A DNA stretch of 64,000 nucleotides from Pseudomonadota bacterium (GTDB lineage Bacteria > Myxococcota_A > UBA796 > GCA-2862545): positions 62,001 to 126,000 of the forward strand of contig SXOB01000053.1 of the NCBI GenBank assembly GCA_005776945.1. Direction: 5' to 3'. Position numbers and translations under genes: made by a program. Below the pieces are notes generated by a model. The model had not been told where the DNA came from and made no database searches. It saw only the letters and a program-made list of their open reading frames with translations. The stretch's first letter is position 1. Each line of letters opens with the position of its first letter. Shown here one piece after another: positions 24,029 through 44,030 of the stretch.

Positions 24029-24063
24029 ACGCCGCCGGTCCCGGTCTGCCGGGTCGGCGGCGT
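24029..24063. terminator. Bidirectional hairpin between convergent genes
   Basis: An outer stem ACGCCGCC/GGCGGCGT encloses an inner stem CCCGG/CCGGG. The structure ends on the first base of the penicillin-binding protein stop codon. Its symmetry and position between convergent genes suggest termination from both sides. Confidence 0.55.
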
Positions 24064-27335: not shown

Positions 27336-28309
27336 GGGACCTCCAAGAGTTCGAACAGTTCACGGGCCATGCGCGCCAAAGGCCAGACCTCCGCCGCCGA
27401 GCGTGCGACCCTACGCGCCCGCTCCCCTTGGGACACTACCGCATCGAGGGCAGAGGCCACGGCCGCCCGATCCGCGGCCGCCGCAACCCACCGGGAGTCG
27501 GGGACCACCTCGCTGGCGCCATCCGCGGCCGTCGTCACCACCGGCACCCCGCAGGCAAGCGCCTCCAGGACGACGTTCGCCGCGCTGTCGTATCGCGTGG
27601 GGTGGAGCAGGACGTCGATCGCCGGCAGCCAGCTCGCTGCGTCAACCACGCCGTGCACGACGAGCCGATCGCCCAAGCGCTGCCTCGCGGCCGCCAACCG
27701 TCGCGAGGCACGAACGTCCTGGCCGGCCACCCAGAACTCGGCCCCGGCCGGTCCCGCGTCGACAAACGCGTCCACGGCGACGTCAAAGCCCTTGCGCTCC
27801 CATCCGTGGGCCATGAACCCTACCCGAAGGGGGCCGGGCCGAACGGCCGTCGGCGCGTAGCGATCGAGATCCACGCCGTTGCGGACCACGCGAACGCCGA
27901 CTCCATAGGCACGCACAAGCGCGTCCGCGGCCGCCTCGCTGTTCGCCACGACCGTTCGGGCCGTCGCCACACAAGCGGCCTCCCGTGCGGCGACCCGCCG
28001 ATCGCGCCAGGTCCAGCCGCGGCCCCGGGCCTCCACCCACCGCGCATGATGCCCGCCTGAGGCACGCCAAACCCCTGGCCCGGGCGTCCGATCGAGACCC
28101 AACGCGCGTTCGCTTCGGGCGCCCCCCAGCGCCCGGCGGGGCCCGCCCCACCATCCGAAACGTCCAATGACAGCGCCGGATGGCAAGGACCCGCGGGCCC
28201 CCCACACCGTCACCGCGCGTCCTTCGGCGAGCCACGTGGTGACGAGGCGGTGGGCTACGCCCGCCGTTCCCGTCATCCCGCCGATTCGGTCCACCACGAC
28301 GTCGATCAT
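27332..28309 (-). CDS. Glycosyltransferase, GT4/WaaG type
   Basis: The 325-residue GT-B enzyme has an N-terminal acceptor half (MIDVVVDRIGGMTGTAG) and a nucleotide-sugar half with VVANSEAAA, VRNGVDLDRY, LRVGFMAHGWERKGFD and the late LLHPTRYDSAANVVLEALA. In that last stretch, the Glu of the family E-x7-E motif appears within NVVLEALACGVPVV. It probably adds a sugar to lipopolysaccharide core or another surface glycan from the cytoplasmic face. ATG 28309 overlaps the upstream glycosyltransferase stop as ATGA, and its own stop overlaps the penicillin-binding protein start. Confidence 0.88.
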   Translation of the reverse strand: MIDVVVDRIGGMTGTAGVAHRLVTTWLAEGRAVTVWGARGSLPSGAVIGRFGWWGGPRRALGGARSERALGLDRTPGPGVWRASGGHHARWVEARGRGWTWRDRRVAAREAACVATARTVVANSEAAADALVRAYGVGVRVVRNGVDLDRYAPTAVRPGPLRVGFMAHGWERKGFDVAVDAFVDAGPAGAEFWVAGQDVRASRRLAAARQRLGDRLVVHGVVDAASWLPAIDVLLHPTRYDSAANVVLEALACGVPVVTTAADGASEVVPDSRWVAAAADRAAVASALDAVVSQGERARRVARSAAEVWPLARMARELFELLEVP

Positions 28310-29043
28310 GCTCGATTCAAGCGCCACAGCGCGATCCACTTCCCCGCGACCCGCACCGCCCCGAAAATGGCAACCGCCAGGCCGGGCACGCCGTCGCGCC
28401 ATCCCGACTGGAGGAGCAGGGCCTTGACGAGGTGCCATGGCGGGCGAACGGCGACGTCCAAGAACCGTGCCTTGACGCCGCGCGCGTGCAGGGAGGTCGC
28501 ATGCCGATCCGCGTACCGACCGATGCGGGCAAGATGATCGCCGACGCTCCGGTAGGGGTCGTGGACAATCAGGCCGTCCAAGACCGCGACCGCTCCGTCG
28601 ACCTCCAGAACATCGTGGGGATCGTCCCCAGCCACCTTCGCGGCGTCGCACCGAACAAGGCGAAGCGGCCGGTCGCGCCCCCAACGGCCGTACCGGATCT
28701 CATGGCCCAACCAGCGGTTTGCGCGTCTCAATCGCGCACCGGCAGCAAAGGGCGCGGCGACAAAGCGTGCGATGGCCTCCGCCGCACCGTCAGCCAGCCG
28801 CTCGTCCGCGTCGAGTACGAGCGCCCACGGCGTGGTCACGTTTGCCAAGGCTCGCGCCTTCTGGGCGACGAAGCCGTCCCACGGATGTTGGACCACCGTC
28901 GCGCCAAGGCGCCGGGCCACTTCCATGGTGGCGTCCGACGACCCACCATCCATCACCAACAGCAACGCATCACGGGGCGCCGATTCCAACGCTGCACCGA
29001 TTCGGTCCGCCTCGTTCGTGGCGACGATCACGAGCGTGAGCAG
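28306..29043 (-). CDS. Family 2 glycosyltransferase (WaaE/KdtX-like), probable CTG start
   Basis: The GT-A enzyme has the opening LTLVIVATNEADRI, the DGGSSDAT nucleotide motif and DADERL (DxD-type metal site). The later RLVRCD and DVLEVDG region is typical of the lipopolysaccharide core WaaE/KdtX group. An AGGAGG Shine-Dalgarno sequence sits 5 bases before CTG 29043, which gives 245 residues and the full first beta strand. The first conventional start, GTG 29031, is 17 bases from that site and clips the strand, so CTG is preferred. It is first in the operon with the GT4 enzyme and the penicillin-binding protein. Confidence 0.85.
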   Translation of the reverse strand: MLTLVIVATNEADRIGAALESAPRDALLLVMDGGSSDATMEVARRLGATVVQHPWDGFVAQKARALANVTTPWALVLDADERLADGAAEAIARFVAAPFAAGARLRRANRWLGHEIRYGRWGRDRPLRLVRCDAAKVAGDDPHDVLEVDGAVAVLDGLIVHDPYRSVGDHLARIGRYADRHATSLHARGVKARFLDVAVRPPWHLVKALLLQSGWRDGVPGLAVAIFGAVRVAGKWIALWRLNRA

Positions 29044-29095
29044 GTCGGCCTCCTTGACTCACCGGGCCGCCCGAATAAGCGGCGCCGGCTGCGCT

Positions 29096-29171
29096 GGCGC
29101 CATACCCAAGTGGTTAAGGGAGAGGTTTGCAAAACCTCCATTCCCCGGTTCGAGTCCGGGTGGCGCCTCCA
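29096..29171 (+). tRNA. tRNA-Cys (GCA)
   Basis: A full cloverleaf is visible. The acceptor stem is GGCGCCA/TGGCGCC, the anticodon loop TTGCAAA (anticodon GCA) sits on a GAGGT/ACCTC stem, and the T-loop is GGTTCGAGTCC. The discriminator is T and CCA is encoded at 29169-29171. Length is 76 bases. Confidence 0.97.
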
Positions 29172-29242: not shown

Positions 29243-29863
29243 GTGCTTGAAAAGGGGATGCTCGCGCTGGCCCTGTCCGGGGCCGAATGGGTCCTGTGGT
29301 TGCTCATTGCGGTGAGCGTGCTGTGCATCGCCGTCAGCCTGGAACGCTTCGTCTTCCTGTTGCGCGAGGCCACCCCAGCCGCGACCCTGCGCGCCGCCGT
29401 CGACCCCTTCTTGCAAGATGGCGACGTCGCCACGTTGCGCACGCGATTGTCGAGCGCGACGGGGATCGAGGCCCGGGTATTGGCCACGGGCCTCGAATTG
29501 GCCGGCCAGGGGCCCAAGGCGGTCGACAAGGCGTTCGCGGGCGCGGCCCTCGCGGAGAAGCTCCGCATGGAGCGCGGACTGATCGTGCTCGCGACGACGG
29601 GCTCCAATGCGCCGTTCATCGGCCTCTTCGGCACGGTGCTCGGCATCATCCAAGCCTTCCACGACCTCTCCATCGACACGGCGGGCGCCTCCGAGGCCGT
29701 CATGAGCGGCATCTCCGAGGCGTTGGTCGCCACGGCGGTGGGCCTCCTCGTCGCCATCCCGGCCGTCGTGCTCTACAACGGCTTCGCTCGCGCGGTCCGC
29801 AACCGCCTGACCCGGCTGGAGTCCATCACCACCCTCGTGGCGGCCCGCCTGGAAGGCCTCTGA
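29243..29863 (+). CDS. exbB: ExbB/TolQ/MotA-family proton channel protein
   Basis: The 206-residue inner-membrane protein has three hydrophobic segments: about 8-32, 110-135 and 150-175. It has the conserved block LATTGSNAPFIGLFGTVLGI, and GISEALVATAVGLLVAIPAV with the Thr that lines the proton path. With ExbD it converts proton motive force into movement of TonB. GTG 29243 has GGGGG 5 bases upstream; the next ATG is not better placed. It lies immediately before exbD, tonB and a receptor in one operon. Confidence 0.93.
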   Translation: MLEKGMLALALSGAEWVLWLLIAVSVLCIAVSLERFVFLLREATPAATLRAAVDPFLQDGDVATLRTRLSSATGIEARVLATGLELAGQGPKAVDKAFAGAALAEKLRMERGLIVLATTGSNAPFIGLFGTVLGIIQAFHDLSIDTAGASEAVMSGISEALVATAVGLLVAIPAVVLYNGFARAVRNRLTRLESITTLVAARLEGL

Positions 29864-29864
29864 A

Positions 29865-30296
29865 ATGGCCGGGCGGCTGGGCGGCGACGACGACCTGATC
29901 GCCGACATCAACATCACGCCCTTCGTCGACATCATTCTCGTCGTTCTCATCATCTTCATGGTGACGGCCACCGCCATCGTGCGCAGTTCGATTCAGGTGA
30001 CTCTGCCGGAGGCGGCGAGCGGCGAACAAGCCGACCAGACGAGCCTTGGCATCACGCTGACGCAAAGCGGCGAGGTCCTCCTCGACGGAGCTCCGACCGA
30101 CGCTGACGGGATCCGCGCTGCCATCGCCGGCGCCAGAGGGCGTGGCGAAGACGTCGTGTGTCTGATCGCGGCTGACCGCGGGGTGCCCTACGGGCGCGTC
30201 GTCTGGGTTCTGGACCTCGTCAAGGGCCAAGGCGTCGCCAAGTTCGCACTCCAAATCGACCAAGCGAGTGCCGTCGCCCCCGAGCCTCCTGGATGA
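29865..30296 (+). CDS. exbD: ExbD/TolR-family protein
   Basis: The 143-residue protein has one transmembrane helix (about 20-42) preceded by INITPFVDIILVVLIIFMV. This includes the essential membrane Asp (FVDI) that takes up protons. The periplasmic domain ends with VPYGRVVWVLDLVKGQGVAKFAL, as in ExbD proteins. ATG 29865 follows the exbB stop by one base, and its own stop overlaps tonB as ATGA. Confidence 0.94.
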   Translation: MAGRLGGDDDLIADINITPFVDIILVVLIIFMVTATAIVRSSIQVTLPEAASGEQADQTSLGITLTQSGEVLLDGAPTDADGIRAAIAGARGRGEDVVCLIAADRGVPYGRVVWVLDLVKGQGVAKFALQIDQASAVAPEPPG

Positions 30297-31012
30297 ACGC
30301 CAGGGCGCTGGACCCCGCTGACCGCCGCGTCGGACCTCTCGCGGCCGCCCTTCTGTTGTCCCTTTTCGCCCACCTTGGCGCGGCATCGGGTGCCGCGCGG
30401 ATACCGGAACGGCCGCCCAAGGGCCCCTCTTGGGTGGAAATGGCCGTGGTCGAACCGCCCCCGCCGCCCCCGCCGCCCCCACCGCCGGAAGCGGAGCCGC
30501 CGCCCCCACCCCCGCCCCCCCAAGCGAACGCGCCACCGCCCCCGAGCGACGCGCCTCCCCCCGACGTTCCTCCGCCGCCGCGCATCGTGCAAGGGCTGTC
30601 AGCTGGTAGCTTTGCGCCGGGATCCGGCACGGGTCTCGCCGTTCGCGCGGGGACGACCACCGCTGCTCGCGCCGAAGGCACCGGCCTCTCGCTCGACGCT
30701 CCGGCTGCCCCGACGCCTGTCGCCTGGGCGGCCCTGAGCGCCCAACCCAAGCTCCGGGCCAAACCCGCGCTCGTCGTCCCTCAAGAGGTGATCGACGCCG
30801 GCCTTGCCGGTGAGGTGGAGCTTCTCCTCGACCTCGCCGTCGACGGTCGCGTGGCCAACGTCCGCGTGGTCACGTCGCTGAGCCCGGCGGCGGACGCCGC
30901 GTGCATCGCGGCCTTGCGCTCGAGTTCCTGGAAGCCTGGCCTCGTCGACGGACGCCCGAGCCCCACGATCGGTGTCCCCTACGGCTGCAAATTCGAGAAG
31001 GTGACGCCGTGA
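30293..31012 (+). CDS. tonB: TonB energy-transducing protein
   Basis: The 239-residue protein has a short N-terminal hydrophobic anchor (about 14-32, LAAALLLSLFAHLG, with the family SLFxH arrangement). A long polyproline spacer (about 54-100, up to eleven consecutive Pro) follows. The C-terminal domain (about 150-235) has ELLLDLAVDGRVANVRV and CIAALRSSSWKPG, which matches TonB-C. The spacer spans the periplasm and the last domain pulls on receptor TonB boxes. The stop overlaps the receptor start as GTGA. Confidence 0.9.
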   Translation: MNARALDPADRRVGPLAAALLLSLFAHLGAASGAARIPERPPKGPSWVEMAVVEPPPPPPPPPPPEAEPPPPPPPPQANAPPPPSDAPPPDVPPPPRIVQGLSAGSFAPGSGTGLAVRAGTTTAARAEGTGLSLDAPAAPTPVAWAALSAQPKLRAKPALVVPQEVIDAGLAGEVELLLDLAVDGRVANVRVVTSLSPAADAACIAALRSSSWKPGLVDGRPSPTIGVPYGCKFEKVTP

Positions 31013-33666
31013 TCATCGCGCTTTGGCTGATGTTCGTCGCCCTGGCCCAAGAACCCTTGCCCCTCGTCGCGGGACCGGCGGTTCTGCAACACGTCGAGGC
31101 GCCATACCCCGAAGACGCCAAGGCCCAGGGCCTCGAGGGCACCGTCGTCCTCCTCGTCACGCTCGACGAAACGGGGGCCGTCACCGAGGTCGCCCTTTCG
31201 ACAACGAGCGGACACCCCGGCTTCGACGACGCGGCCCTCGCCGCCGTCCGTACGATGACCTTTTCGCCGGCACGAACGGCCGAGGGTCCCGTCGCCGTCT
31301 CCTTCGAATTCGCGTACGGCTTCACCTTGGAGGAGGAAGTCGAGGCAGCCCCCGCCGCGGCGGTCGTCCCTACGGTCTCCGGCCAGGTACGCACCAAGGC
31401 CACGCGTCGCCCGGTCGCCGGTGCCCAGGTCGTCGTCATCGGGTCCCCACTCACGGCAACGACCGACGAGACCGGACACTTCACCCTTACGGATCTGCCC
31501 ACCGGCGAGGTGCGCCTGCGCGTGGCGCACCAGGACCACGAGTCGGGGGACGCCACATTCGAGGCCGTCCCCGGCGAGGTCGCCGAGGCGAACATCTGGT
31601 TGGAGCCAAAGGGCTGGCGCGAAAACCAAGTGGTCGCCGTCTACGAAGGCCAGGAAACCGAGGTCACCCGCAGGACCCTGTCGATCGAAGAGATTCGGAC
31701 CATCCCAGGTACGTTCGGGGATCCCATCAAGGTGATCCAGACCCTTCCTGGCGCGGCGCGGAGCCCCTTTGGCACAGGCGCCCTCATCATTCGCGGCAGC
31801 AACCCCGAGGACAGCGGCGTCTACGTCGACGGCGTCCGGATTCCGCTGATCTACCACTTGACGGGCACGACGAGCGTCCTGAACCCCGAGATCATCGCCG
31901 CCGTCGACTACCTGCCCGGCGGCTACGGCGTACAGTACGGCCGCAGCATGGGCGGCGTGGTCGACGTCCGGACGAAGACCGAGTTCGATCCCGACGAGAA
32001 AATCAGCTGGGGCACGGACATCCTCGACTCCCAGGTGCTCTTCGAGGGCCAAGTCGGAAAAAAGGGCAAAGAGCACGGCTTCGCCATCGGCGCCCGCCGT
32101 TCCTACATCGACCTCTTCATCCCACTGTTCACCGGCGACACTGGCTACACGATCAAGCCAAGGTACTGGGACTACCAAGTCAAATGGGTGCCGCCGACGA
32201 CGGACGACCGCGACGTCGACATCTTCCTTTACGGATTCGACGACACGTTGACGTTGGGGACGCCCGACGACGTCGCCCAGGGCGACGACCAGGACACCCA
32301 AGGCGACTTCCGGACGCAGTACGACAGTCACCGCCTCGTCGGCCACTGGCGAACGCCGCTGGCGGATGGTTTCGAACTCGACCTGCGGCCGGCCATCGGC
32401 ATCGACACGTCCTACCTTGGCCTTGGCCAGGACTTCGTCATCGACAACGGCAACGTGCTGTTCGAACTCCGCGCAGAAGCGCCATGGAAGGCCACCCCAG
32501 CGGTGACCGTCGTGCCTGGCGTCGACTTCCTTGGCGCCATTTGGTGGTTCGACTTCCAGAGCAGCTTTCGCATCACGGACCTCGACGACCCCCTCGCGGA
32601 GCGAGAAGCCGTCGGTTTCGACGGGGAGGGCGGGTTCTGGTCACCGGACCCCTACCTCCGCCTCGACTTCCGACCCCTCGACGACCGCGACCGCTGGTTG
32701 ATTTCGCCCGGGCTCCGCGGCAACGTCGTGACGCTGACGACGAGCGGAACGATCACGGGTGCCGACCCCGTCCCCGCCAACACGACGACCAGCTTCGACC
32801 CCCGCCTGCTCACCCGTTTCCAAGCGAATGAGCGGCTGGCCTTCAAAGCCAGCACCGGACTCTACCATCAGCCGCCCCAACCCCAGGAAATCGTGGGCGT
32901 CGGCACCCAGAGCACCGTCGGGCACGAGCAGTCGTGGTCGACGAGCGTTGGCGCCGAGCAGCGCATCTCCGACGCAGTCCACTACGACATCGACTTGTTC
33001 TACAAGCGGATGACAGACCTCATCGTCTACGACGAGGCCTGGACCGGCTTTGGCACGAACCCCTTTGTGAACGCCGGCGAGGGGCGCGCATACGGAGCGG
33101 AGGTCATTCTCCGCCACGACCCCACCGGGCCCTTCTTTGGATGGGTGTCCTACACCTTGTCGCGCGCGTCACGCCTCGACTGGCCAACCTGCACAAGTGC
33201 CGCGGGAGAACCGCTCGCTGCACCCGCAGAGGGGCTCGATCGTCTCCTGGGCCAAGGTGATTGCTGGTACCCGTTCGACTTCGACCAGACCCACATCCTG
33301 AGCGCACAAGGCGGCCTCAAGTTGCCTCACGCCTTCCAGGTCAGCGCCCAGGTCCAGTATGTGACCGGCAACCCGACCGACCTCTACGAGGTCGGCATCT
33401 ACGACGTCGACGGCGACTTCTACAATGGCCTCTCCGTCGACGCGGCCCCAACGCGCAACCCGCCGTTTTTCCAGACCAGTGTGCGCATCGACCGGGACTG
33501 GCACTTCAAGGCGCTCAAGATGCGCACCTACGTCGACTTGATGAATGTCGTCAGGGCCGTGAACTCGGAGTTCACACTCTACAACTACGACTACAGCGAA
33601 GTCGCCTACGTCCGCGGGCTGCCGTTCATTCCGAACATCGGCGTGGAGCTTGCCCTATGGCCATGA
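31009..33666 (+). CDS. TonB-dependent outer-membrane receptor with N-terminal TonB-C-like domain
   Basis: The 885-residue product has a short signal (MIIALWLMFVALAQ). A TonB-C-like domain (about 20-105) shows YPEDAKAQGLEGTVVLLVTL and FDDAALAAVRTMTFSPAR. A carboxypeptidase-regulatory-like beta domain (about 120-200), a plug with GDPIKVIQTLPGAARSPFG and VYVDGVRIP (from about 230), and a beta barrel ending at the C-terminal aromatic Trp-Pro complete the protein. The barrel should take up a nutrient in a TonB-driven way. Having a TonB-like domain on the receptor itself is notable, although such fusions occur in Myxococcota. It is coupled to tonB and followed by a lipoprotein. Confidence 0.9.
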   Translation: MIIALWLMFVALAQEPLPLVAGPAVLQHVEAPYPEDAKAQGLEGTVVLLVTLDETGAVTEVALSTTSGHPGFDDAALAAVRTMTFSPARTAEGPVAVSFEFAYGFTLEEEVEAAPAAAVVPTVSGQVRTKATRRPVAGAQVVVIGSPLTATTDETGHFTLTDLPTGEVRLRVAHQDHESGDATFEAVPGEVAEANIWLEPKGWRENQVVAVYEGQETEVTRRTLSIEEIRTIPGTFGDPIKVIQTLPGAARSPFGTGALIIRGSNPEDSGVYVDGVRIPLIYHLTGTTSVLNPEIIAAVDYLPGGYGVQYGRSMGGVVDVRTKTEFDPDEKISWGTDILDSQVLFEGQVGKKGKEHGFAIGARRSYIDLFIPLFTGDTGYTIKPRYWDYQVKWVPPTTDDRDVDIFLYGFDDTLTLGTPDDVAQGDDQDTQGDFRTQYDSHRLVGHWRTPLADGFELDLRPAIGIDTSYLGLGQDFVIDNGNVLFELRAEAPWKATPAVTVVPGVDFLGAIWWFDFQSSFRITDLDDPLAEREAVGFDGEGGFWSPDPYLRLDFRPLDDRDRWLISPGLRGNVVTLTTSGTITGADPVPANTTTSFDPRLLTRFQANERLAFKASTGLYHQPPQPQEIVGVGTQSTVGHEQSWSTSVGAEQRISDAVHYDIDLFYKRMTDLIVYDEAWTGFGTNPFVNAGEGRAYGAEVILRHDPTGPFFGWVSYTLSRASRLDWPTCTSAAGEPLAAPAEGLDRLLGQGDCWYPFDFDQTHILSAQGGLKLPHAFQVSAQVQYVTGNPTDLYEVGIYDVDGDFYNGLSVDAAPTRNPPFFQTSVRIDRDWHFKALKMRTYVDLMNVVRAVNSEFTLYNYDYSEVAYVRGLPFIPNIGVELALWP

Positions 33667-34544
33667 CCCGACTGGCACCGCTTCTGTTCCTCACCGGATG
33701 CGTCATCGACCAGAACCAATGGTTGCGGCCGCGCGACCTCAGCCCAGTCTGGCTGGTGGATCGGCTCCGCATCCTGGCGGTCGTCGCAGAACCGCCCGAA
33801 GTTGAACCGGGGGACCTCGCGACGTTCACCGCGCTCGTCCCCGGGCCAGCGGACGTTCCCGACCAGGTCCGCATCTGGCTTGCCTGCCCACCGGTACTCG
33901 GAAGCGAAACGACGTTTGCCGCCAGCTGTTCGCTCGACCCGTCCGCGCTGAGCGACACGGCGACCGTACCCGACGGATTCATCGGCCTGGAGCCCGGCCT
34001 GCCGCCGTCCTGGCGCGTGCCGGATGACGCCCTGGATGGCCTCGCTCCCGAAGACGAGGAGGAGGGCGCGTACGCGACGATTCAGGTCATGTCCCTGCCG
34101 TCCACGGCGATCGAAGACCTTTCAGCCGACATCGACTTCACCGAGGTCGAGACGGGCACGAAGCGCCTCGTCGTTTCGCGGGCACAAACCCCCAATGCCA
34201 ACCCGTGGTTTGACGACTTTCGCGTCGAAGGCGTCTCCATTCCCGAGGGCACGACCGTCGAAGTCGACCCCAACCAGCCCTATGAGATCGAGGTCGTCCT
34301 GCCCGACGCAGCCATCGAGACCTACCTCTACGTCAACAGTCAGGGTTTCACAGAAGAGCGGATCGAGGAGCCCTACGTCGCCTGGTACGCGGACGGGGGA
34401 GAGATCGACGAGCACTTCACACTGCATCCCTATTTGCAGTCGAGCTGGGTTTCTCCAGCATCGGGGTCCGGGTCGTGGTGGGCCGTGGGTCGCGATCGGC
34501 GCGGAGGCATGACCTGGCTCGAGCGTTCCTGGACCGTCCGGTAG
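33657..34544 (+). CDS. Lipoprotein coupled to the TonB receptor
   Basis: The 295-residue product begins MAMTRLAPLLFLTGC, with the lipobox LTGC at residues 12-15. The mature part is acidic and beta-rich (for example YEIEVVLPDAAIETYLYV) with no recognised domain. Its start lies within the last codons of the receptor gene; ATG 33657 has GGAG 8 bases upstream, and a second ATG at 33663 overlaps the receptor stop. By position it may be a surface or periplasmic partner for the receptor's substrate. A 190-base gap separates it from the next module. Confidence 0.7.
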   Translation: MAMTRLAPLLFLTGCVIDQNQWLRPRDLSPVWLVDRLRILAVVAEPPEVEPGDLATFTALVPGPADVPDQVRIWLACPPVLGSETTFAASCSLDPSALSDTATVPDGFIGLEPGLPPSWRVPDDALDGLAPEDEEEGAYATIQVMSLPSTAIEDLSADIDFTEVETGTKRLVVSRAQTPNANPWFDDFRVEGVSIPEGTTVEVDPNQPYEIEVVLPDAAIETYLYVNSQGFTEERIEEPYVAWYADGGEIDEHFTLHPYLQSSWVSPASGSGSWWAVGRDRRGGMTWLERSWTVR

Positions 34545-34696
34545 GGGTCCCTCCGGCCCGCGAAGCTCCGTCACAAGGATTTTGCAGGTCGCCGATCCGC
34601 CAACAAGCGGGGCCCGCACCCCCACGGGGGCCACCAGCTGCCCGACGCGCCTGGGGTGCAAGCCGTAGGCCCGGACGCGTGCTAAGGTGCGGCGGC

Positions 34697-34713
34697 TCGG
34701 GCCTCAGGCCCGA
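34697..34713 (+). terminator. Hairpin in the leader before the Glt/Nfs-like block
   Basis: The inverted repeat TCGGGCC/GGCCCGA with a TCA loop is followed by TTT. It ends about 22 bases before the first barrel gene, just upstream of its GGAG site. It could end transcription coming from the receptor operon or modulate entry into the next block. Confidence 0.45.
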
Positions 34714-34735
34714 TTTCTCCAACGGAGACCCCCGG

Positions 34736-35563
34736 ATGCTTCGTTTCCTTCGCGCCGCATCGCTTGCGGTCGTCGCCGCGCTGGCGCCCTCCGGGGCCGC
34801 AGCCGTCGATGACCCAGGGATCGCCGCGCTTGAACAGCAGCGCGCCGAACGCAAGCCGATGAAGGCAGTGGAGAACCGGTTCTTCCTCAAGCAGGACCGA
34901 TTCGAGGTCGCGCCCGCCTTCGGCTACGTCCCCAACAATCCGATGGCCCGCCGCTTCACCGGCGAGATCAACTTCGGGTACCACTTCGCTGAGAACCTCT
35001 CCGCGCAAGCACAGATCGGCTTCAGCCCCGACCTCGGCGAAAACGACCTCAAGGGTCTGCCGTCGGTGCTGTTGCAGCGCGCCTACGACGCGTCTTCGGC
35101 CAACGCCGCCGCCTTCCAGCAGCCCTTGGACAAAGTGGTGCTAGGCGCGAACTTCGGCGTCGCTTGGGCCCCGCTCTACGGCAAGATCAACTTGGTCGGC
35201 GAGACCGTCCTGAACTTCGACTTCTACGGCTTCGCCGGCCTCGGAATGGTCTCGAAGCAGAACTACGTCGCGACCTACGACGTCGGTGTGGACATCACCC
35301 AGCCCGGCGCCGACATCGTTCTGCTGACGAAGCAGGGCAACGAAGTCAAACCCAGCCCAGCCTTGGGCGTCGGCATGAACTTCTTCGTGAACCAGACCGT
35401 CGCCCTCAAGCTCGACGCCCGGTCCGCCCTCTACATCGACAAGAAGCCGCAATACGACGCCAATGTTCCGGTGTCCGAACAGCGGCTGTACAACAACTTC
35501 ACCGCCACGGTGGGCGCAGGCTTCTTCTTCCCGAAGATGAAGTCCCGCCTCTACAGCTACTAG
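34736..35563 (+). CDS. Outer-membrane beta-barrel, Glt/Nfs A/B type
   Basis: The 275-residue product has a signal peptide (cut near Ala-Ala-Ala at residues 21-23). A short charged linker leads to NRFFLKQDRFEVAPAFGYVPN, the conserved entry of the myxobacterial outer-membrane barrel family that includes GltA/GltB and NfsA/NfsB. Alternating aromatic strands end with Tyr-Ser-Tyr, a typical barrel terminus. ATG 34736 has GGAG 8 bases upstream. It is followed by a paralogous barrel 10 bases downstream and then the C-D-E-like genes. It probably forms the outer-membrane ring of an envelope machine. Confidence 0.8.
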   Translation: MLRFLRAASLAVVAALAPSGAAAVDDPGIAALEQQRAERKPMKAVENRFFLKQDRFEVAPAFGYVPNNPMARRFTGEINFGYHFAENLSAQAQIGFSPDLGENDLKGLPSVLLQRAYDASSANAAAFQQPLDKVVLGANFGVAWAPLYGKINLVGETVLNFDFYGFAGLGMVSKQNYVATYDVGVDITQPGADIVLLTKQGNEVKPSPALGVGMNFFVNQTVALKLDARSALYIDKKPQYDANVPVSEQRLYNNFTATVGAGFFFPKMKSRLYSY

Positions 35564-35573
35564 GAGCCGCTCG

Positions 35574-36398
35574 ATGCGCTCGTTGCACGCACGCCGCATG
35601 TTGCGGCCCGCCGCGGCACTTGTGGCGTCCCTCTGGGCCGCCTCGCCGGCTGTCGCCCAGGACGATGACCTGGACGACATCCTTTCAGGGGACACCGATC
35701 CTGAGGACAGCCTGCGCGAAGAGCGCCGCGCCGTCCAGGACGGCGAGCTCGACGCGAAGGCTCCGGCCGACCGCGAGCGGCCAACGATCTTGACGCTGCA
35801 GCGCAAGACCTTCATGAAGATCAATCGCTACGAGGCCGGGCCCCACCTCGGATTCGTGACGAACGACCCATTCTTGTCGGTCTACATGGCGGGTGGCAGC
35901 TTCGCCTACCATGTGACCGAGGTCTTCGGCGTCGAGGTGAGCGCCACCTACGCGCCCTTCGTCGTCCGCAAGCCGATCACGGTCCAGATCGTCGAAGAGA
36001 ACCAGGTCACGCCTGACATCTCGAAGATCCAGTTCCTCGCCAATGCGTCTGCGCAGTACTCGCCCGTCTACGGCAAGGTCGCGATGGGCCAGAACGGCAT
36101 CATCATGTTCGACCTCTTCGGGACGTTTGGCACCGGCTTCGTCAACACGAACGACGACCTCGAAGCCCTGCAGGCCGAAGGCGAAGAATTCGCTGTTGCC
36201 ACCGATGCCCAATTCCATCCTACGCTCAATTACGGAGGCGGCTTCCGGGTCATCTTCAACGAAGGCCTGGCCGTTCGCATCGAAGCGCGCGGGATGTCCT
36301 ACGTGGAGACCTTGGAAAGCACGACTCTGGAGATGAAGAACAACATGATCCTCCAGGCGTCAGCCTCGTTCTTCTTTCCCGGCATGAAGCAGGAGTGA
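35574..36398 (+). CDS. Outer-membrane beta-barrel, Glt/Nfs A/B type (second copy)
   Basis: The 274-residue paralog of the preceding barrel has a signal peptide cut after AVA (about residue 27). A long acidic segment (DDDLDDILSGDTD) follows, then the family entry FMKINRYEAGPHLGFVTNDP, and YHVTEVFGVEVSATYAP. The last strand ends SASFFFPGMKQE. The acidic N-terminal segment is absent from its neighbour and might bind calcium or partner proteins. GGAG lies 8 bases before ATG 35574. Two unlike barrels in tandem match the A/B pair of the gliding and spore-coat systems. Confidence 0.8.
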   Translation: MRSLHARRMLRPAAALVASLWAASPAVAQDDDLDDILSGDTDPEDSLREERRAVQDGELDAKAPADRERPTILTLQRKTFMKINRYEAGPHLGFVTNDPFLSVYMAGGSFAYHVTEVFGVEVSATYAPFVVRKPITVQIVEENQVTPDISKIQFLANASAQYSPVYGKVAMGQNGIIMFDLFGTFGTGFVNTNDDLEALQAEGEEFAVATDAQFHPTLNYGGGFRVIFNEGLAVRIEARGMSYVETLESTTLEMKNNMILQASASFFFPGMKQE

Positions 36399-36402
36399 CC
36401 CC

Positions 36403-38238
36403 GTGAAGACGTACACTCCCTGGTGGATCGCACTCAGTCTGGTCGCGCCAAGCACGGCCTTCGCGCTGTCCTGTGACGAGATCATGCAGATGGTCGGCGC
36501 CAACGTCCCGCCCGAGGTCGTGGTCGCCACGATGCAGGGGTCGGGCCAGAAGTTCTCCGCCGCCGACGTCAGCTGCCTCGCCAGCCGTTCAGCGCCTCCT
36601 GCCGTGCTCGAAGCGGCCAAGGCCATGGGCGCGCCAGCCGCGGCCCCCGTCGCCCTCCCCTCCCCGACGGCGGCTCCGGCCGCGGTCGACGATGAGCGCG
36701 ACCTCCCCGCTCGCCCCACGGCCTCAGACCCAAGTGAGGCCCTGACGGGCACGGCGTCTGATTTCGAGGAGCCCTCCGGCAGCGGTCCTCAGGAGGTCGA
36801 AGCCCTCATCGAGGCGTACCGCGCAGGTAAGTTCCTGACGTCGTCCAAGGGTCTTTACGACCTGCTCGCAGCGGACAAGTATCCCGACCAGCGGACCCGG
36901 ATTCAGCACTACCTTGGCAAGTCGCTCTACGACCTCGGGATGCTGCAGTCTGCCCAATTCTACTTCATGGAAGTCGTGCGCAAGGGCCCGTCGAACCCGT
37001 ACTTCAAGTACGCGCTGCCCTGGCTCGTCAAAATCAGCACGACCACGGGCAACGACTACGAACTTCTGCGCGTCGTCAAGCAGATCTCCCCGGACGCCTT
37101 CCCCCGCGAAGCGCGCAATCAGATCTACTACCTGCTCGGTCGCAAGAACTACGAAGAGGACAAGCTCTCGGAGGCCTCCGGCTTCTTTCAGCAGGTCTCC
37201 GAGAAGTCCGACCTCTACATGCGCGCGCGATTCTTTGACGGCGTCATCTCGGCCGAGCGCGACAAGTTCAAGACGGCCGCCCAGGCCTTTAGCGACGTCG
37301 TGCAGGCCAAGCCGGCGGTGGCCACCGAGGAAGAGGCCGCGCAGCTCGAAGACATGCGCGACCTCGCCCTGATGAACATCGCTCGAATCTACTACCAGCT
37401 CGAGCGCTTCGACACGTCGATCGAACACTACAAGATGGTCGATCGCAACAGCACCTACTGGGCGCAAAGCCTCTTCGAACGCGCCTGGGCGACCTTCATC
37501 GCGCAGGAACTCAACCAGACACTTGGCCTCCTGCTCACGGTCGAGAGCCCGTACTTCAACGAACGCGAGTTCCTCCCTGAGGTCACCATCCTCCGGGCGT
37601 TGACCTACTTCAACCTCTGCAACTACGACGAAGTCGAGGCCATTCTCATCGACTTCGACGACCGGTTCAAGCCGCAAGCGGCGGAGTTGGAGGCCTTCCT
37701 CGATCAGTACAAGTCCGACCAGGGCCAGGAGCTTGCCGACCAGGCCTTCGACGCATGGTTCGTCCAGGGCAAGAAGGACAGCACCCTCGAACCCGCCATG
37801 TTCGCGCGACTTTTGCGGAACCGCGAGCTCTCGTCCCTTGTCCGCTCCTTGGACATGATGGACGAGGAGTTGGCCTTGATCGACGCTCAGAAGTCCGTCT
37901 GGAAGGACACCGTCGGCGACGAGCTCAAGCGCGTCCTCGAGGGAGACCGTTTGCGCTACAAGAAGAAGGGCGGCCGCGTCCTGCTTCAAGAGTTGCTTGG
38001 TCAGTACCGCTCCCTCAAGGACCTGCTCATCCAGAGCGAGGTCGTGCGCTTCGAAGTCGTCGATGCGCAGCGGCAAGACTACGAGTTCAAGATGCAGAAT
38101 CCCGAGGTCGGCGCACTGGACGCTGCCCGCGTGGACTTCGCGACGTCTCCTGAGTTCATCTACTGGCCGTTCAACGGCGAATTCTGGCGCGACGAGCTGG
38201 GGTACTACGAGTACGCCGAGCACGGTCGCTGCAAGTAG
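36403..38238 (+). CDS. GltC/NfsC-like periplasmic TPR-type protein
   Basis: The 611-residue product has a signal peptide (cut after AFA at about residue 21) and a small Cys-containing N-terminal domain (about 22-65). A Pro/Ala/Asp linker follows, then a long helical repeat region (about 130-560) with TPR-like hairpins such as LYDLGMLQSAQFYFMEV and NIARIYYQLERFDTSIEHY. Length, layout and place after two A/B barrels fit GltC/NfsC. GTG 36403 has AGGAG 7 bases upstream. It probably links the barrels to the large D-like TPR protein in the periplasm. Assignment rests on architecture and order, not on a database search. Confidence 0.75.
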   Translation: MKTYTPWWIALSLVAPSTAFALSCDEIMQMVGANVPPEVVVATMQGSGQKFSAADVSCLASRSAPPAVLEAAKAMGAPAAAPVALPSPTAAPAAVDDERDLPARPTASDPSEALTGTASDFEEPSGSGPQEVEALIEAYRAGKFLTSSKGLYDLLAADKYPDQRTRIQHYLGKSLYDLGMLQSAQFYFMEVVRKGPSNPYFKYALPWLVKISTTTGNDYELLRVVKQISPDAFPREARNQIYYLLGRKNYEEDKLSEASGFFQQVSEKSDLYMRARFFDGVISAERDKFKTAAQAFSDVVQAKPAVATEEEAAQLEDMRDLALMNIARIYYQLERFDTSIEHYKMVDRNSTYWAQSLFERAWATFIAQELNQTLGLLLTVESPYFNEREFLPEVTILRALTYFNLCNYDEVEAILIDFDDRFKPQAAELEAFLDQYKSDQGQELADQAFDAWFVQGKKDSTLEPAMFARLLRNRELSSLVRSLDMMDEELALIDAQKSVWKDTVGDELKRVLEGDRLRYKKKGGRVLLQELLGQYRSLKDLLIQSEVVRFEVVDAQRQDYEFKMQNPEVGALDAARVDFATSPEFIYWPFNGEFWRDELGYYEYAEHGRCK

Positions 38239-38246
38239 GGGCCCCG

Positions 38247-41200
38247 ATGCGCACCGATACGATTCGAATCCTCCCTGTCGCGCTCGCGCTCGCGCTCGCG
38301 TCCATCGCGCCGTCGGCTTTCGCCGCCGACGCCAAGGACGAAGAACGCCGCGTCATGAGCGCGCGCCAGGTCGACACCACGGCCAACGTCTCTGAAGAGA
38401 TGGCCAAGATCGCGGAGTCGAAGCGCCTTGAGGCCATCTCGCGCCTCAAGGACCTCCTCGGCAAGGGCGTCGAGGGCGACCAAAAGGCGGAGATGATGCT
38501 CCGCCTCGCCGACCTCTACTTCCAACAAGGGCGCTTTCTCTACCTCAAAGAGATGGCGACGTTCGACGTGGCCTACGACAAGTGTTTCAACACGGAAGGC
38601 TGCGACACGGACAAGCTGAAGGCGGACAATGCCGGCTCCCGTGAATGGCAGGAAAAGTCGATCCGGCTCTACGAAAATATCCTGACGAATTACCCGCGCT
38701 ACGCGCGCGCCGACCAAGCTACCTTCTTCCTCGGCAGCGCGCTGCAGGACGTCGGCCGCCGCGAAGATTCCGTCGAAGCGTTCAAGAAGCTCGTCAAGCT
38801 CTACCAAGATTCGTCGTACGTTCCCGACGCCTACGTGCTCATCGGCGAGTATTACTTCGAGACGAACAACGCCTACGCGGCCTTGCGCGCCTACCTGAAG
38901 GCCACGTCGTTCACGGCCAGCGAGAAGTACCCCTTCGCGATGTACAAGCTCGCGTGGTGCTACTACAACGTTGGCGACTACACCTCGGCCATCGATACGA
39001 TGAAGACGGTCGTCTCGTACGGCCAAGGCATGACGGCCGAACAGAAGAAGGGCGTCAACCTCGAGGACGAGGCGCTCAAGGACCTCGTACGATTCTTCGC
39101 TGACGCCGGCGCGATGAACGACGCCTACGAGTACTTTACCAAGCTCGGCAAGAAGGACCTCATCCAGGCCATGTTGGCCCGGTTGGCGACCACCTACTAC
39201 GAACAGGGCAAGTTCGACCAAGCGATCGAGACGTATCGCCGATTGATCGCCGAAGATCCGAACGGGGCGAAATGCCCGGACTACCAGGGCGAAATCATCA
39301 ACGCCTTCCGCAAGATGGGTCAGCGCGACCGCACGCTGGAGGAAATCGATCGCCTCCTCCGCGACTACGGCAAGACCAGCGCCTGGGCGCGCACGAACGC
39401 GTCGAATCCCAATGTGGTCGCCGACGCCACACGCCGCATCGAGGAAAACCTGCGTCGCGCCGCCGTGGAATACCACAACGAGGCGAAGACGCTCGAAAAG
39501 GGCCGCCACAAAGACGCGGGACCGACCTACCAACTCGCTCGGCAGGCCTACGCCAGCTACCTCAACGAGTTCGCCAAGGACGAGCACGCCTACGACGTCC
39601 GCTACGCCTACGGCGAACTCCTTTACCACCTCAAGGACTTCAAGGGCGCGTACGACCAGTACATGAACGTGGTCGATATCAACCCCACGGGCAAGTACAG
39701 CAAGTTCTGCGCTGAGGCGGCCATTTTCGCCGCCGAGGAGCAGGTCAAGCTCGAGGGCGGTGGCGACGCGTCCGGCAAAGTAACGGCGAGCGCGAAGGAC
39801 TCCAAGAAGGAGGCGCTGCCGCTCACAGACTGGGAGCAGAAGCTCGTCGACGCCTGTCGTAAGTACGCGGAGTTGTTCCCCAACGACACCAAGGTTCGGA
39901 ACGTCATCTACAAGTCCGCCTACTTGTTGTACAACAAGTACCGCTTCGAAGACGCCGCCACGCAGTTCCGCGTCGTCATCAAGATGGAACCGTCATCAAA
40001 GGAAGCGGAAACTGCAGCCGAGCTCATCCTGGACTCGTTCGTCATCCGTGAGGATTGGAAGAACCTCAAGGAGAACGCCAAGTTCTACTACGACCAAGAG
40101 GGTCTCGGCAGCGCGAAGTTCAAGACGGAGACCTACGGCGTCTACCAGCGCTCGTCCTTCAAGCTCATCGAGACGGAATTCGACAAGGACAAGGACAAGG
40201 GCAAGGCCGCCGACGCCTTCGTCGCGTTCTACGGCGAGTTCCCCGAGGCCGACACGGCCGCCCAGGCCCTGAACAACGCATCGATCTACTACTACGACAC
40301 GAGCCGCCTGGCCGACGCCATGAAGGTTCGCCACATCCTCATCGACGACCCGAAATTCGGCCCGAAGGTCAAGTACTACTACGACCAAATCGGCGCTTTG
40401 GGCTACGATTACGAGTCCATCGCGAATTTCGAACGCTCGGCCTTCTACTACGAGAAGCTCTGGGCCCTGTTCCCAGAGGAATCGAAGAAGCTCGGCAAAG
40501 ACAAGCCGGACGAATTGGCGAAAATGTCCGGAAAGGCTGCGGACGCCATCTACTCGGCGGCTGTGTTCCGCAATGCCATGGGTGAGTGGGAAGCGGCGAT
40601 CGCGAACTACGGGCAGTTCATCACAGCCTTCGCGAGCGACCCGCGGTCGACCGAGACCAAGATCACGATCGCGCGCATCTACGAGGATCACGGGCGTCCC
40701 GATGAGGCCGGCGCCGCGTTCATGGCCTTCTACACGAAGCCGCCCGCAGGTGCGCCCGAGGAGTTGCTCTACTTCTCCCGCTTGCACCACGGACGCGTGC
40801 TCACCGCCGACGGCGAGAAGGCGAAGGCCGACAAGCTGTACGCGGACACGGTCGCGATGTGGAAGAAGGCTGGCCAGCCCAAGGGCCCGCCGACTGAGTT
40901 CGTCGCCGAGATGATGTATGTCCTGGCCCAGCCCACACTCGGCAAGTACATGGAGCTCAAGATCAAGGGCGCGGGCAAGGCCGCGGGTAAGAAGGCCGAG
41001 GACAAGGCCCTCATCGACAGCCTGGGCGCCAAGTCCAAGGCGTTGCTTGGCACACAGGTCGCATTCACCGAAATCGTTGGCACCGGCGCCGGCGAGTGGG
41101 GTCTCGCGAGCTTGGTCGCCCTCGGCAAGGCGTATGAGAACATGGCCGACACGCTGCGTACGGGCGCCGTCCCCTTCTACCTGACGGACGATCAAATCGA

Positions 41201-41441
41201 GATCTACCAGATGGGCATCGAAGACAAAGCCTATACCCAGATTGAAAAGGCCGTCGAAGCCTACAAGCTCGCCCTGGAGAAGAGCTTCGAGCTCACGCTC
41301 TACAACGAGAACACCGCCTACGCGACACGCCAGCTCGGCGTCCTTCGGCCCCAGGAATACCCCGGCCTCAACGAGGTTCTCGTCGAGGGGCGGTACACCA
41401 GCCAGAAAGTTCGCAACTTCGAACCCGAGCAGGGCCTGTGA
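38247..41441 (+). CDS. GltD/AgmU (NfsD)-like large periplasmic TPR protein
   Basis: The 1064-residue product has a signal peptide cut after AFA (about residue 27). Most of the rest is tetratricopeptide-type helical pairs, for example RADQATFFLGSALQDVGRRE, KLAWCYYNVGDYTSAI and RYAYGELLYHLKDFKGAYDQ. Such size, export and TPR density match GltD (AgmU), the periplasmic scaffold of the Myxococcus gliding machine, and its NfsD paralog. Tyr and Lys are unusually frequent, with many YYY and YYFE runs. It starts 9 bases after the C-like gene and is followed by the E-like lipoprotein. Confidence 0.8.
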   Translation: MRTDTIRILPVALALALASIAPSAFAADAKDEERRVMSARQVDTTANVSEEMAKIAESKRLEAISRLKDLLGKGVEGDQKAEMMLRLADLYFQQGRFLYLKEMATFDVAYDKCFNTEGCDTDKLKADNAGSREWQEKSIRLYENILTNYPRYARADQATFFLGSALQDVGRREDSVEAFKKLVKLYQDSSYVPDAYVLIGEYYFETNNAYAALRAYLKATSFTASEKYPFAMYKLAWCYYNVGDYTSAIDTMKTVVSYGQGMTAEQKKGVNLEDEALKDLVRFFADAGAMNDAYEYFTKLGKKDLIQAMLARLATTYYEQGKFDQAIETYRRLIAEDPNGAKCPDYQGEIINAFRKMGQRDRTLEEIDRLLRDYGKTSAWARTNASNPNVVADATRRIEENLRRAAVEYHNEAKTLEKGRHKDAGPTYQLARQAYASYLNEFAKDEHAYDVRYAYGELLYHLKDFKGAYDQYMNVVDINPTGKYSKFCAEAAIFAAEEQVKLEGGGDASGKVTASAKDSKKEALPLTDWEQKLVDACRKYAELFPNDTKVRNVIYKSAYLLYNKYRFEDAATQFRVVIKMEPSSKEAETAAELILDSFVIREDWKNLKENAKFYYDQEGLGSAKFKTETYGVYQRSSFKLIETEFDKDKDKGKAADAFVAFYGEFPEADTAAQALNNASIYYYDTSRLADAMKVRHILIDDPKFGPKVKYYYDQIGALGYDYESIANFERSAFYYEKLWALFPEESKKLGKDKPDELAKMSGKAADAIYSAAVFRNAMGEWEAAIANYGQFITAFASDPRSTETKITIARIYEDHGRPDEAGAAFMAFYTKPPAGAPEELLYFSRLHHGRVLTADGEKAKADKLYADTVAMWKKAGQPKGPPTEFVAEMMYVLAQPTLGKYMELKIKGAGKAAGKKAEDKALIDSLGAKSKALLGTQVAFTEIVGTGAGEWGLASLVALGKAYENMADTLRTGAVPFYLTDDQIEIYQMGIEDKAYTQIEKAVEAYKLALEKSFELTLYNENTAYATRQLGVLRPQEYPGLNEVLVEGRYTSQKVRNFEPEQGL

Positions 41442-41452
41442 GGACCTCGACC

Positions 41453-43030
41453 ATGCGCACTGCCATCCTCCTGACCTTCCTCGCCGCCTGCGGCGAGAAG
41501 AAGCCGGCGGAGCCCGCCGCCGACCTCACGACGAACCCGGCCGCCAATTTCCAGGCCGGGCTCAACGTGCTGAATTCGCCCGACAAGAAGACGGGCAAGG
41601 TCGACTACACCACGGCGTACAACTACTTCAATGCGTCGGCGAACCTACAAGGTGGCGCCAAGGCGCATTTCAACGCCGGTTGGACCGCCGAGAAGCTCGA
41701 CGACCTGCCGGGCGCCGAGAAGCACTACGCGGAAGCGTTCAAGCTCGACCCAACCTATCAGCCCGCCATGTTTTCCTACGCCCGCGTGCTCGGCGACCAG
41801 GGCAAGGGCGCTCAGGCGGTCGACGTGTACAAGGGCTACGTCGAGAAGAATCCGAAGGATTACGAAGTTCGGAACGACTACATCGGCGCACTGGTCAAGG
41901 CCAAGCTCCACGAAGCCGCCCAGGCCGAAGCCGAAGAAATCCTCCGCCACGATCCGAAGAATGCCGGCGTGTACCGCAACCTCAGCGCAATGTACTACGA
42001 CCAGGGCAACTACGGCATGAGCGCCCTCTGCGCCGAAAAGGCGCTCCAGCTCAACCCCGGCGACATCGGCACCTACAACAACCTCGGCGTGACGATGCTC
42101 CAGCAGGGCAACGAGGCCGCGGCGATCGACAAGTTCAAGACGGCGCTCAAGCTCCAGTCGAACAACTTCGAAGCAAACATGAATATGGGTTGGGTCGCCG
42201 TGAACTCCGGCGACTACAAGCTGGCCGACGCCTCCTTCACCGCGGCCCTGACCCAAGACTCGCGCAACCTCGACGCCCGCATGGGCCTTGCGATCGCGAA
42301 GCGCGGTCTCGCCGACTACAAAGCGTCGGGCGAGCTCTACGACGAGATCATCGCAGGTGACAAGGACAACAAGGCCGCCTTCAACAACGCTGCCGTCCTC
42401 AACGAGTACTACACGAAGGACTTCGTCAAAGCGACAAAGTACCTCCAAGCCTACATCGACGCGCACCCCAACCAGATCGCGCCGACCGACGAGATCTTCG
42501 CCCACATGGAGCGCATCCGTCAGCTTCAGGTCGAAGAGGAGGAGCGCAAGCGCCAAGAGGCCGAGCGCAAGCGCCTCGAAGAGGAGCGCAAGCGCCGCAA
42601 CGAGGAGACGCTCAAGGAAATCGCGACGATCACGGCCGCTGCACAAGCCAAGCTCACCGCGAACACCGCATGCATCGACCCGTACATGGCCGAAGAGTTG
42701 GCCATCGTCTTCGAGCAGGCCCAGCAGATCGTCGACGCGGAAGAAGCCGACATGGCGCCGGACATCAAGACGCTGCTCGACGGCTACATTCCGCAGCTCG
42801 ACGAGGCCGTGGCCGCCATGTGCACCGGTGCACCGCCACCCGCCCCGGAGGGTACGCCTCCTGCCGACGGCGAGACTCCGGCCGAAGGCACACCACCCGT
42901 CGAAGGCACCCCGCCTGCCGAAGGCACCCCGCCCGCCGACGCAGCTCCTACCGGCACACCGCCAGCTGACGGCACCCCGACGGACGCCCCCGAGGCCCCC
43001 CCCGTCGAGGCTCCGCCCGGCCAACCCTGA
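41453..43030 (+). CDS. GltE/AglT (NfsE)-like TPR lipoprotein
   Basis: The 525-residue product begins MRTAILLTFLAACGEKK with lipobox LAAC. Tandem TPRs fill about residues 55-350 (for example NLGVTMLQQGNEAAAIDKFK). A highly charged helix (about 362-390, repeated ERKR-type sequence) follows. After that comes a Cys-containing segment and a Pro/Glu/Gly/Thr tail from about 460. Size, lipid anchor and TPRs match GltE (AglT). ATG 41453 is preferred; a GTG at 41438 overlapping the previous stop is possible and would add five residues before the signal. The tail encodes an 18-base repeat. Confidence 0.8.
   Translation: MRTAILLTFLAACGEKKPAEPAADLTTNPAANFQAGLNVLNSPDKKTGKVDYTTAYNYFNASANLQGGAKAHFNAGWTAEKLDDLPGAEKHYAEAFKLDPTYQPAMFSYARVLGDQGKGAQAVDVYKGYVEKNPKDYEVRNDYIGALVKAKLHEAAQAEAEEILRHDPKNAGVYRNLSAMYYDQGNYGMSALCAEKALQLNPGDIGTYNNLGVTMLQQGNEAAAIDKFKTALKLQSNNFEANMNMGWVAVNSGDYKLADASFTAALTQDSRNLDARMGLAIAKRGLADYKASGELYDEIIAGDKDNKAAFNNAAVLNEYYTKDFVKATKYLQAYIDAHPNQIAPTDEIFAHMERIRQLQVEEEERKRQEAERKRLEEERKRRNEETLKEIATITAAAQAKLTANTACIDPYMAEELAIVFEQAQQIVDAEEADMAPDIKTLLDGYIPQLDEAVAAMCTGAPPPAPEGTPPADGETPAEGTPPVEGTPPAEGTPPADAAPTGTPPADGTPTDAPEAPPVEAPPGQP
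42881..42934 (+). repeat. 18-bp tandem repeat in the tail of the GltE-like lipoprotein
   Basis: Three near-perfect 18-base units encode EGTPPA/V repeats, with degenerate copies on both sides. The unit keeps the frame, so tail length may vary between strains. The encoded Pro-rich tail could span or contact the cell wall. Confidence 0.8.
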
Positions 43031-43070
43031 CCTGAACGGCCGCTCGTCGGCCCCAACCTGAGAGGGACAC

Positions 43071-43328
43071 ATGCGTACCTTAGGAATGCTGCTCGCCATG
43101 GCCATGGCCGCGCCGGCCTCCGCACAGGAGACCGACGATTCGGGTCGCCAGATCAAGTACAAAGAGCGCACGGAAATCGACTTCGAAGGGCTCGATGTCA
43201 CCGGCGAGCTCGTCAAGCCGGCCGGGCAGTTGCTGCTCGACCGCCGCAAGGCAAACTTCAATCCGCTCATCCGGATGCGTGAGAACTTCACGGCCGAGAT
43301 GAAGCAGTCGGTAGACGAGGTCAAGTAG
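43071..43328 (+). CDS. Short exported protein in the F position of the Glt/Nfs-like block
   Basis: The 85-residue product has a signal peptide cut after ASA (residue 18), leaving about 67 charged residues with TEIDFEGLDVTGELVKPAG, LLLDRRKANFNPLIRMR and a C-terminal helix. There are no Cys. GAGAGGGA precedes ATG 43071. The length is small, but export, codon use and tight placement between the E-like lipoprotein and the third barrel argue that it is real. It occupies the place of GltF/NfsF; I cannot confirm homology by eye. Confidence 0.75.
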   Translation: MRTLGMLLAMAMAAPASAQETDDSGRQIKYKERTEIDFEGLDVTGELVKPAGQLLLDRRKANFNPLIRMRENFTAEMKQSVDEVK

Positions 43329-43352
43329 GCGCTTCGCGCCCCAGGAGACCCC

Positions 43353-44030
43353 ATGGTGACGGTAGGAACGTTGTGGCTGGCACTGGCCGGCAACGCACAA
43401 GATCTCGACGAAAGTGACGGCAAGAAGGCGCGCGAGAACGCCGCGGCCGCCGCCGAACAAGAGATCACGCGCGAAGTCGTCCGCGGCTACTTCCTGAAGT
43501 CAAATATCGGCGTGACGAACTACCTCGGCACCGCCGGGGTACCGACGAGCGGCGTCATCGCCCTCAGTCTTGGCGTCGGAAGTGACTTCATCGACAAGGA
43601 GCGCATCAGCGCGTCTTGGGAAGTCGACCTCCAGCAGGCGCTGATCAACGGTCCGCGGTCCGACGAAATTTCGTTGTACCCACCCGTCATTCAGGGCGAC
43701 CTTCACGTCTTCAACCTTCTCGTGACGGCCGAGGTCAGCACCTACCTGACACGCCGCTTCGGGCTCGGCCTGCGGGGCGGCGGCGGCCTTTCCATCATCC
43801 CTCTGCTGATGGGAGCCGAGGGCTACCAGGAGAACCTGGTCGACGGCGTCTGGGGCGGCGTCCCCGCTCTGGTGCACGAGGGCCCACTGCCCATCGTACT
43901 CGTCAGTCCGACCATCGAGTATTACACGAAGCTCTCGCACTTCTCGGTGGGCGCGGAGGCTGACGTCTCCTACACGATCGGTTGGGACCTTGGCGTCACG
44001 CCGACCGGCTACCTCAAGTACACGTTCTAG
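43353..44030 (+). CDS. Third outer-membrane barrel (GltH/NfsH- or CglE-like)
   Basis: The 225-residue product has a short signal-like start (MVTVGTLWLALAGNAQ) and a charged Ala/Glu helix. About ten amphipathic beta strands begin at EVVRGYFLKSNIGVTNYLG and end at the aromatic C-terminus (YLKYTF). It is distinct from the two A/B barrels. AGGAG lies 5 bases before ATG 43353. It closes the block that starts at 34736. Candidates are the GltH/NfsH barrel or the motility protein CglE; a profile search is needed to decide. Confidence 0.7.
   Translation: MVTVGTLWLALAGNAQDLDESDGKKARENAAAAAEQEITREVVRGYFLKSNIGVTNYLGTAGVPTSGVIALSLGVGSDFIDKERISASWEVDLQQALINGPRSDEISLYPPVIQGDLHVFNLLVTAEVSTYLTRRFGLGLRGGGGLSIIPLLMGAEGYQENLVDGVWGGVPALVHEGPLPIVLVSPTIEYYTKLSHFSVGAEADVSYTIGWDLGVTPTGYLKYTF

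Follow-up and report, generated by a model that had tools for sequence, protein, structure and literature searches.

In Myxococcus xanthus, the motor protein AglR binds both GltG and NfsG, and both motility and sporulation require aglRQS (PMC3169522, PMC3858216). The second paper also describes the Nfs complex, encoded by nfsA-H, as using AglRQS encoded elsewhere in the genome. The same species has three receptor-linked Ton clusters, including ton-oar, in which ExbB, ExbD, TonB, and a TonB-dependent receptor are encoded in one cluster (PMC6434023). A literature search of titles and abstract openings found no ExbBD-TonB-receptor operon beside glt or nfs genes, a result that does not imply absence from print.

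The window analyzed here is a stretch of 64,000 nucleotides (G000:C48:62001-126000) from a draft genome of 3.88 Mb in 92 contigs. On its forward strand, it encodes an ExbB-ExbD-TonB-receptor-lipoprotein module (29243 to 34544) ahead of a Glt/Nfs-like block (34736 to 44030). We postulate, with a probability of roughly 0.78, that the module energizes an ordinary outer membrane uptake system that lies beside the Glt/Nfs-like cluster, and that motors of the type established for such clusters are encoded elsewhere in the genome.

The Ton-type module and the Glt/Nfs-like block

The module begins with an ExbB-type proton-channel subunit (29243 to 29863; PF01618, 115 bits), assigned also by its place in the ExbB tree, and an ExbD-type subunit (29865 to 30296; PF02472, 97.8 bits) whose channel aspartate was located by alignment at D22. 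TonB (30293 to 31012; PF03544, 34.7 bits) has one transmembrane segment with an SxxxH motif, found by alignment, a proline-rich spacer, and a TonB_C domain. It is followed by a TonB-dependent receptor (31009 to 33666; Plug, 38.2 bits) and a lipoprotein that starts at 33657 or 33663 and ends at 34544. All four Pfam scores are above the family cutoffs. Stop and start codons overlap between ExbD and TonB, between TonB and the receptor, and between the receptor and the lipoprotein, so that the group is tightly packed; the receptor probably starts with a GTG that overlaps the tonB stop. The first-pass annotation had described the ExbB/ExbD pair and a TonB with a polyproline spacer on one strand ahead of the block, a receptor and a lipoprotein in between, and a single ExbD-type gene, all of which the Pfam matches and coordinates bear out.

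The window proteins have all of the channel residues of a Ton system, namely, the aspartate in the ExbD helix, the glutamate and threonine of ExbB, and SxxxH in the TonB helix, at positions that we take to match those in E. coli ExbB, ExbD, and TonB. Glu159 and Thr164 are invariant in 14 aligned ExbB rows, as is Asp22 in 14 ExbD rows; TonB His27 occurs in 14 of 14 rows, and the serine of SxxxH is not in every row. The ExbB and ExbD family profiles match solved TolQ/ExbB and ExbD/TolR chains. The three Pfam families of a Ton system are thus present above their cutoffs, with a TonB-dependent receptor co-encoded. The E. coli-type NCBI equivalog cutoffs were not reached (tolQ, 106.7 bits against 221; exbB, 96.8 against 206.2; tolR, 88.1 against 127.3; ExbD_1, 55.8 against 152.95), and we therefore file the module only as a Ton-type system.

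At its N terminus, the receptor has a TonB_C domain (61.7 bits), which matches TonB C-terminal domains, and it also contains a carboxypeptidase-regulatory-like domain (CarboxypepD_reg in Pfam). MxcH-type receptors share the N-terminal TonB_C domain (NF038079, 77.2 bits, residues 59 to 182), but the score is far below the 925-bit cutoff, and the N-terminal part alone matched. The domain is conserved among aligned relatives from the order. In structure comparisons, the predicted receptor model came nearest to nutrient TonB-dependent transporters, PqqU/YncD first; with a mean pLDDT of 75 and a poor plug region, it supports a general transporter fold only. The lipoprotein model (pLDDT 89.7) matches only general Ig-like folds, and for this reason no substrate can be named. 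The M. xanthus Ton clusters resemble the module in gene content, and Oar also has an N-terminal extension (PMC6434023). They differ in that the window receptor has an N-terminal TonB_C domain and is followed by a lipoprotein, and ton-oar has two ExbD genes compared with one in the window.

The block opens with two GltA/B-type outer membrane barrels (34736 to 35563, 93.3 bits; 35574 to 36398, 105.2 bits; TIGR04565, cutoff 60). Next come a GltC-like gene (36403 to 38238; NF033756, 264.2 bits, below the cutoff of 450) and a GltD-like gene for a long TPR protein (38247 to 41441). The latter has TPR matches and was called, without an NCBIfam scan, from its position and homology (431 bits to the open reading frame after GltC in genome G058). 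A GltE-like TPR lipoprotein (41438 to 43030; NF033758, 102.9 bits, below 225) is followed by a CglF/GltF-like small exported protein (43071 to 43328; NF033764, 58.6 bits, below 90), which lies between GltE and a CglE/GltH-like barrel (43353 to 44030; NF033755, 93.7 bits, above 70). CglE is presumably equivalent to GltH, judging by position. All of these genes are on the forward strand.

The gltA-H/nfsA-H gene order A/B, C, D, E, F, H is present, and together with the family matches it supports the Glt/Nfs-like label that the block had been given from its sequence alone. As in the Nfs system (PMC3858216), an A-H set occupies one region without counterparts of I, J, and K. The difference is that the cluster has no GltG/NfsG-like gene; one was found on contig C12, where the 18 kb examined contained no further glt genes, and the scores of GltC, GltE, CglF, and GltG are below the NCBI equivalog cutoffs. 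The C12 gene encodes an FHA domain and a TonB-like tail (308.6 bits to NF033760, cutoff 650). A GltG-like gene sits between CglF and CglE in 16 of the 20 order loci where both were seen.

Between the two packed groups is a gap of 191 bases (34545 to 34735). The first reading had reported a gap of about 190 bases with a hairpin, and both are there; as a whole, the gap folds about as stably as shuffled sequence does (z = −0.53), and a terminator scan scored no terminator-like site in the gap. Site counts from the promoter and terminator scans did not exceed those in shuffled sequence (1 versus a mean of 1.4 and 9 versus 11.9). The lipoprotein-to-barrel gap spans 184 to 1,104 bases in 31 loci, with no clear figure for L103 or L155. 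Within the Ton group, and from the barrels through GltC and GltD to GltE, most genes follow closely on one another, and some other gaps are large, chiefly that between GltE and CglF. In 17 loci of relatives, including the one that supplied the query protein and two identified through weak matches, an opposite-strand gene of one family lies in the lipoprotein-barrel gap. The lasting gap and this gene suggest that the two groups may be separate transcription units. The opposite-strand family (L069:12308-12730) consists of small exported-looking proteins with no Pfam match and was not found in the window.

Grouping of the window ExbB and motors elsewhere in the genome

The window motor and the AglRQS motor (M1 cluster) belong to the same families, MotA/TolQ/ExbB and ExbD/TolR. 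AglRQS has two ExbD-type subunits beside one AglR and acts through GltG, whereas the window motor has a single ExbD, its own TonB, and a receptor. We built a tree of 79 ExbB-family rows with reading frames chosen by profile. A branch with 100/99 support separates 35 ExbBs of the window kind, among them one from an additional module copy within the order, those of modules located on other contigs, and two from outside the class, from 30 AglR-type rows, a label given by similarity and gene context, no named AglR profile having matched. The remaining 14 rows are in neither group. We left out a MotA row (C88); C21a and C21b, whose loci overlap, gave a single identical row; and several long branches were flagged, including those of C81, C30, and C20 from the query genome. 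The window ExbB groups with receptor-linked Ton systems, whether these are beside Glt genes or not, and apart from the AglR-type rows. The first-pass annotation had proposed such a phylogeny, and this grouping is the one that it had named as speaking against its idea of a shared motor.

It had also named a separate aglRQS set in the same light, and AglRQS-type sets are present on two other contigs. Nine MotA/TolQ/ExbB matches were detected in the query genome. Contig C81 encodes a TPR protein, GltD-like and GltE-like proteins, a small protein resembling CglF, an AglR-type protein, two ExbD-type proteins, and a GltG-like protein (136.7 bits to NF033760), while C30 has an AglR-type gene and two ExbD-type genes. 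An AglR-type gene followed by matches to both ExbD-type subunits was seen in 29 relatives. TolQ is encoded on C70 (241.8 bits, cutoff 221). Plug and TonB_C also gave nine matches each in the genome, with eight of those to TonB_C above the cutoff, and Ton transport is therefore general in it.

The first ExbD-type subunit of C81 (L051:10059-10565) has, by eye, an asparagine at the expected channel aspartate position, which makes the activity of this motor uncertain. Its counterparts in loci L296 to L324 have asparagine in some families and serine in others. The second ExbD-type subunit of the C81-type motor keeps the aspartate in rows with a readable frame of their own, and both subunits of the C30 set have it. 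Contig C3 (L053:9227-10012) encodes an ExbD-type protein whose C-terminal end weakly matches the AgmX/PglI tail (below the cutoff), with another ExbB and ExbD adjoining. A partial Glt-like set on C49 (L065:6738-10284) comprises genes for three proteins, one with a VWA-like start, one a TIGR04565 barrel, and one GltC-like (101 bits).

Conservation and separability of the two units

We examined 40 loci from the order, of which 28 include 7.9 kb or more ahead of GltC; the other 12 were too short and were left out. ExbB-ExbD-TonB lies upstream of the block in 22 of the 28, with the order ExbB-ExbD-TonB-receptor-lipoprotein-barrels-GltC kept, and the receptor and lipoprotein are beside the block in 26. 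Beyond the order, the class has the same arrangement in G060, G149, G165, and G229 (f7) and in G065 (f8), which belong to other orders. The adjacency is real and old.

The two units are also separable. In four genomes (G002, G003, G005, and G048), the locus lacks the three motor genes but has the receptor, and no ExbB of this kind was found anywhere in these drafts. G008 and G044 carry module and block on different contigs, with other genes upstream of the block; in G035, a complete additional copy of the module stands on contig C132, where 18 kb of sequence contained no Glt genes. G189 (f9) has its receptor-lipoprotein pair on one contig and ExbBD-TonB on another. Receptor-lipoprotein pairs away from Glt genes were detected in G026, G054, and G005 and outside the class. 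In G016, both module and block reach contig ends and may really adjoin. All of the genomes are drafts, and absences are provisional.

Nineteen loci from outside the class, chosen as the best GltC matches rather than at random, were read, and one with 858 bases upstream (L143) was excluded. In all 18 readable loci, which have GltC and GltD, profiles detected no module gene in the 8.6 to 10.3 kb upstream of GltC; in L144, a single-sequence search gave a weak TonB match (13 bits) not seen by profile. Related Ton genes are found outside the class as well, at places with no Glt genes close by, such as ExbB-ExbD-TonB-lipoprotein with no receptor match in G239 and a receptor-lipoprotein pair beside a divergent ExbBD in G252.

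Over 58 genomes of the order, window-type ExbB was found in 47 (at least 277 bits) and block-type GltC in 52 (at least 190 bits), with thresholds that we set from gaps in the score lists. Both markers are present in 43 genomes, GltC only in 9, ExbB only in 4 (77 to 88% complete), and neither in 2, and the two markers are not associated across these genomes (Fisher P = 0.32). Block GltC is retained in 9 of the 11 genomes without window-type ExbB. AglR-type genes (at least 134 bits, likewise set by us) are present in 50 of the 58 genomes and in 10 of those 11, the exception being G015.

A conserved neighbor upstream of the module serves as a control for synteny. A tRNA-Cys(gca) gene (29096 to 29171, forward strand) lies ahead of ExbB in the window, at the same place as in relatives: 15 of the 19 order loci that extend 900 bases or more in that direction and 4 of 5 further loci from the class. 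It is also ahead of the detached module of G044, and in four loci without ExbBD-TonB (L083, L086, L094, and L231) it is directly ahead of the receptor. A role for a tRNA gene in the machine is not plausible, so the entire region seems to be stable; since the gene is about as conserved as the module, synteny is weak evidence for shared function. The upstream region (24063 to 29171), with a penicillin-binding-protein-like gene, two glycosyltransferase-like genes, and the tRNA-Cys gene, is partly conserved with the module in the class.

Proposed role of the module and alternatives

In the uptake system that we propose, ExbB and ExbD would harness the proton gradient to drive TonB, and the C-terminal domain of TonB would act on the receptor encoded by the neighboring gene and so move a substrate, and the lipoprotein with its Ig-like folds may aid substrate binding. 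By Myxococcus precedent, the gltA-H/nfsA-H-type cluster would be driven through GltG by an AglRQS motor, for which the sets on other contigs are candidates. The neighborhood would have been inherited across much of the class together with the tRNA-Cys gene, and the two units probably are not functionally coupled. Gene order conserved across the order and class could reflect selection, which counts against this reading.

The first-pass annotation had left open whether the motor serves the receptor alone or both receptor and block; our results favor the receptor alone. That ExbBD-TonB energizes the block, replacing AglRQS or alongside it, seems to us very improbable, although the adjacency is old and conserved. 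A review describes possible TonB boxes in GltA/B (PMC5349195), through which TonB could touch the barrels, and our alignment shows a short conserved stretch in the exported N terminus of barrel 2. Against such a drive are an ExbB that is not of the AglR type, the persistence of block GltC without it, modules that stand apart, the AglRQS-type sets, and the 18 readable Glt cores outside the class, none of which has such a neighbor.

An alternative hypothesis is that the units share a process and no motor, the receptor and lipoprotein binding or moving something that the Glt-like surface machine handles, for example, a polymer or a secreted protein. Oar, a receptor needed for protein secretion in M. 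xanthus (PMC6434023), offers a parallel, and the receptor and lipoprotein stay beside the block even in four loci without ExbBD-TonB there (L083, L086, L094, and L103). We consider this unlikely, given that the tRNA-Cys gene is about as tightly linked and that receptor-lipoprotein pairs also occur away from Glt genes. A similarly doubtful proposal is that the Ton operon and the Glt/Nfs-type machine were joined early in the class and work together, with the receptor and lipoprotein supplying cargo or TonB giving the barrels a second energy input; if so, the task of ExbBD-TonB would have passed to another Ton motor in the lineages that lost it.

The uptake reading argues against the tempting model of a Ton motor driving a Glt machine, and the tRNA-Cys control illustrates how little deep synteny by itself says about coupling. 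That a class of uncultured Myxococcota retains a Glt A-H-type cluster and encodes AglRQS-type motors at other places in the genome is useful for tracing the spread of Glt and Nfs systems. An alignment search with the GltD-like protein found 55 loci in named records, 52 of which have titles starting with MAG. Six contigs with a Myxococcota-type cluster (L157, L158, L174, L182, L207, and L186) are titled Klebsiella pneumoniae (five) or Bifidobacterium breve (one), and these titles look wrong.
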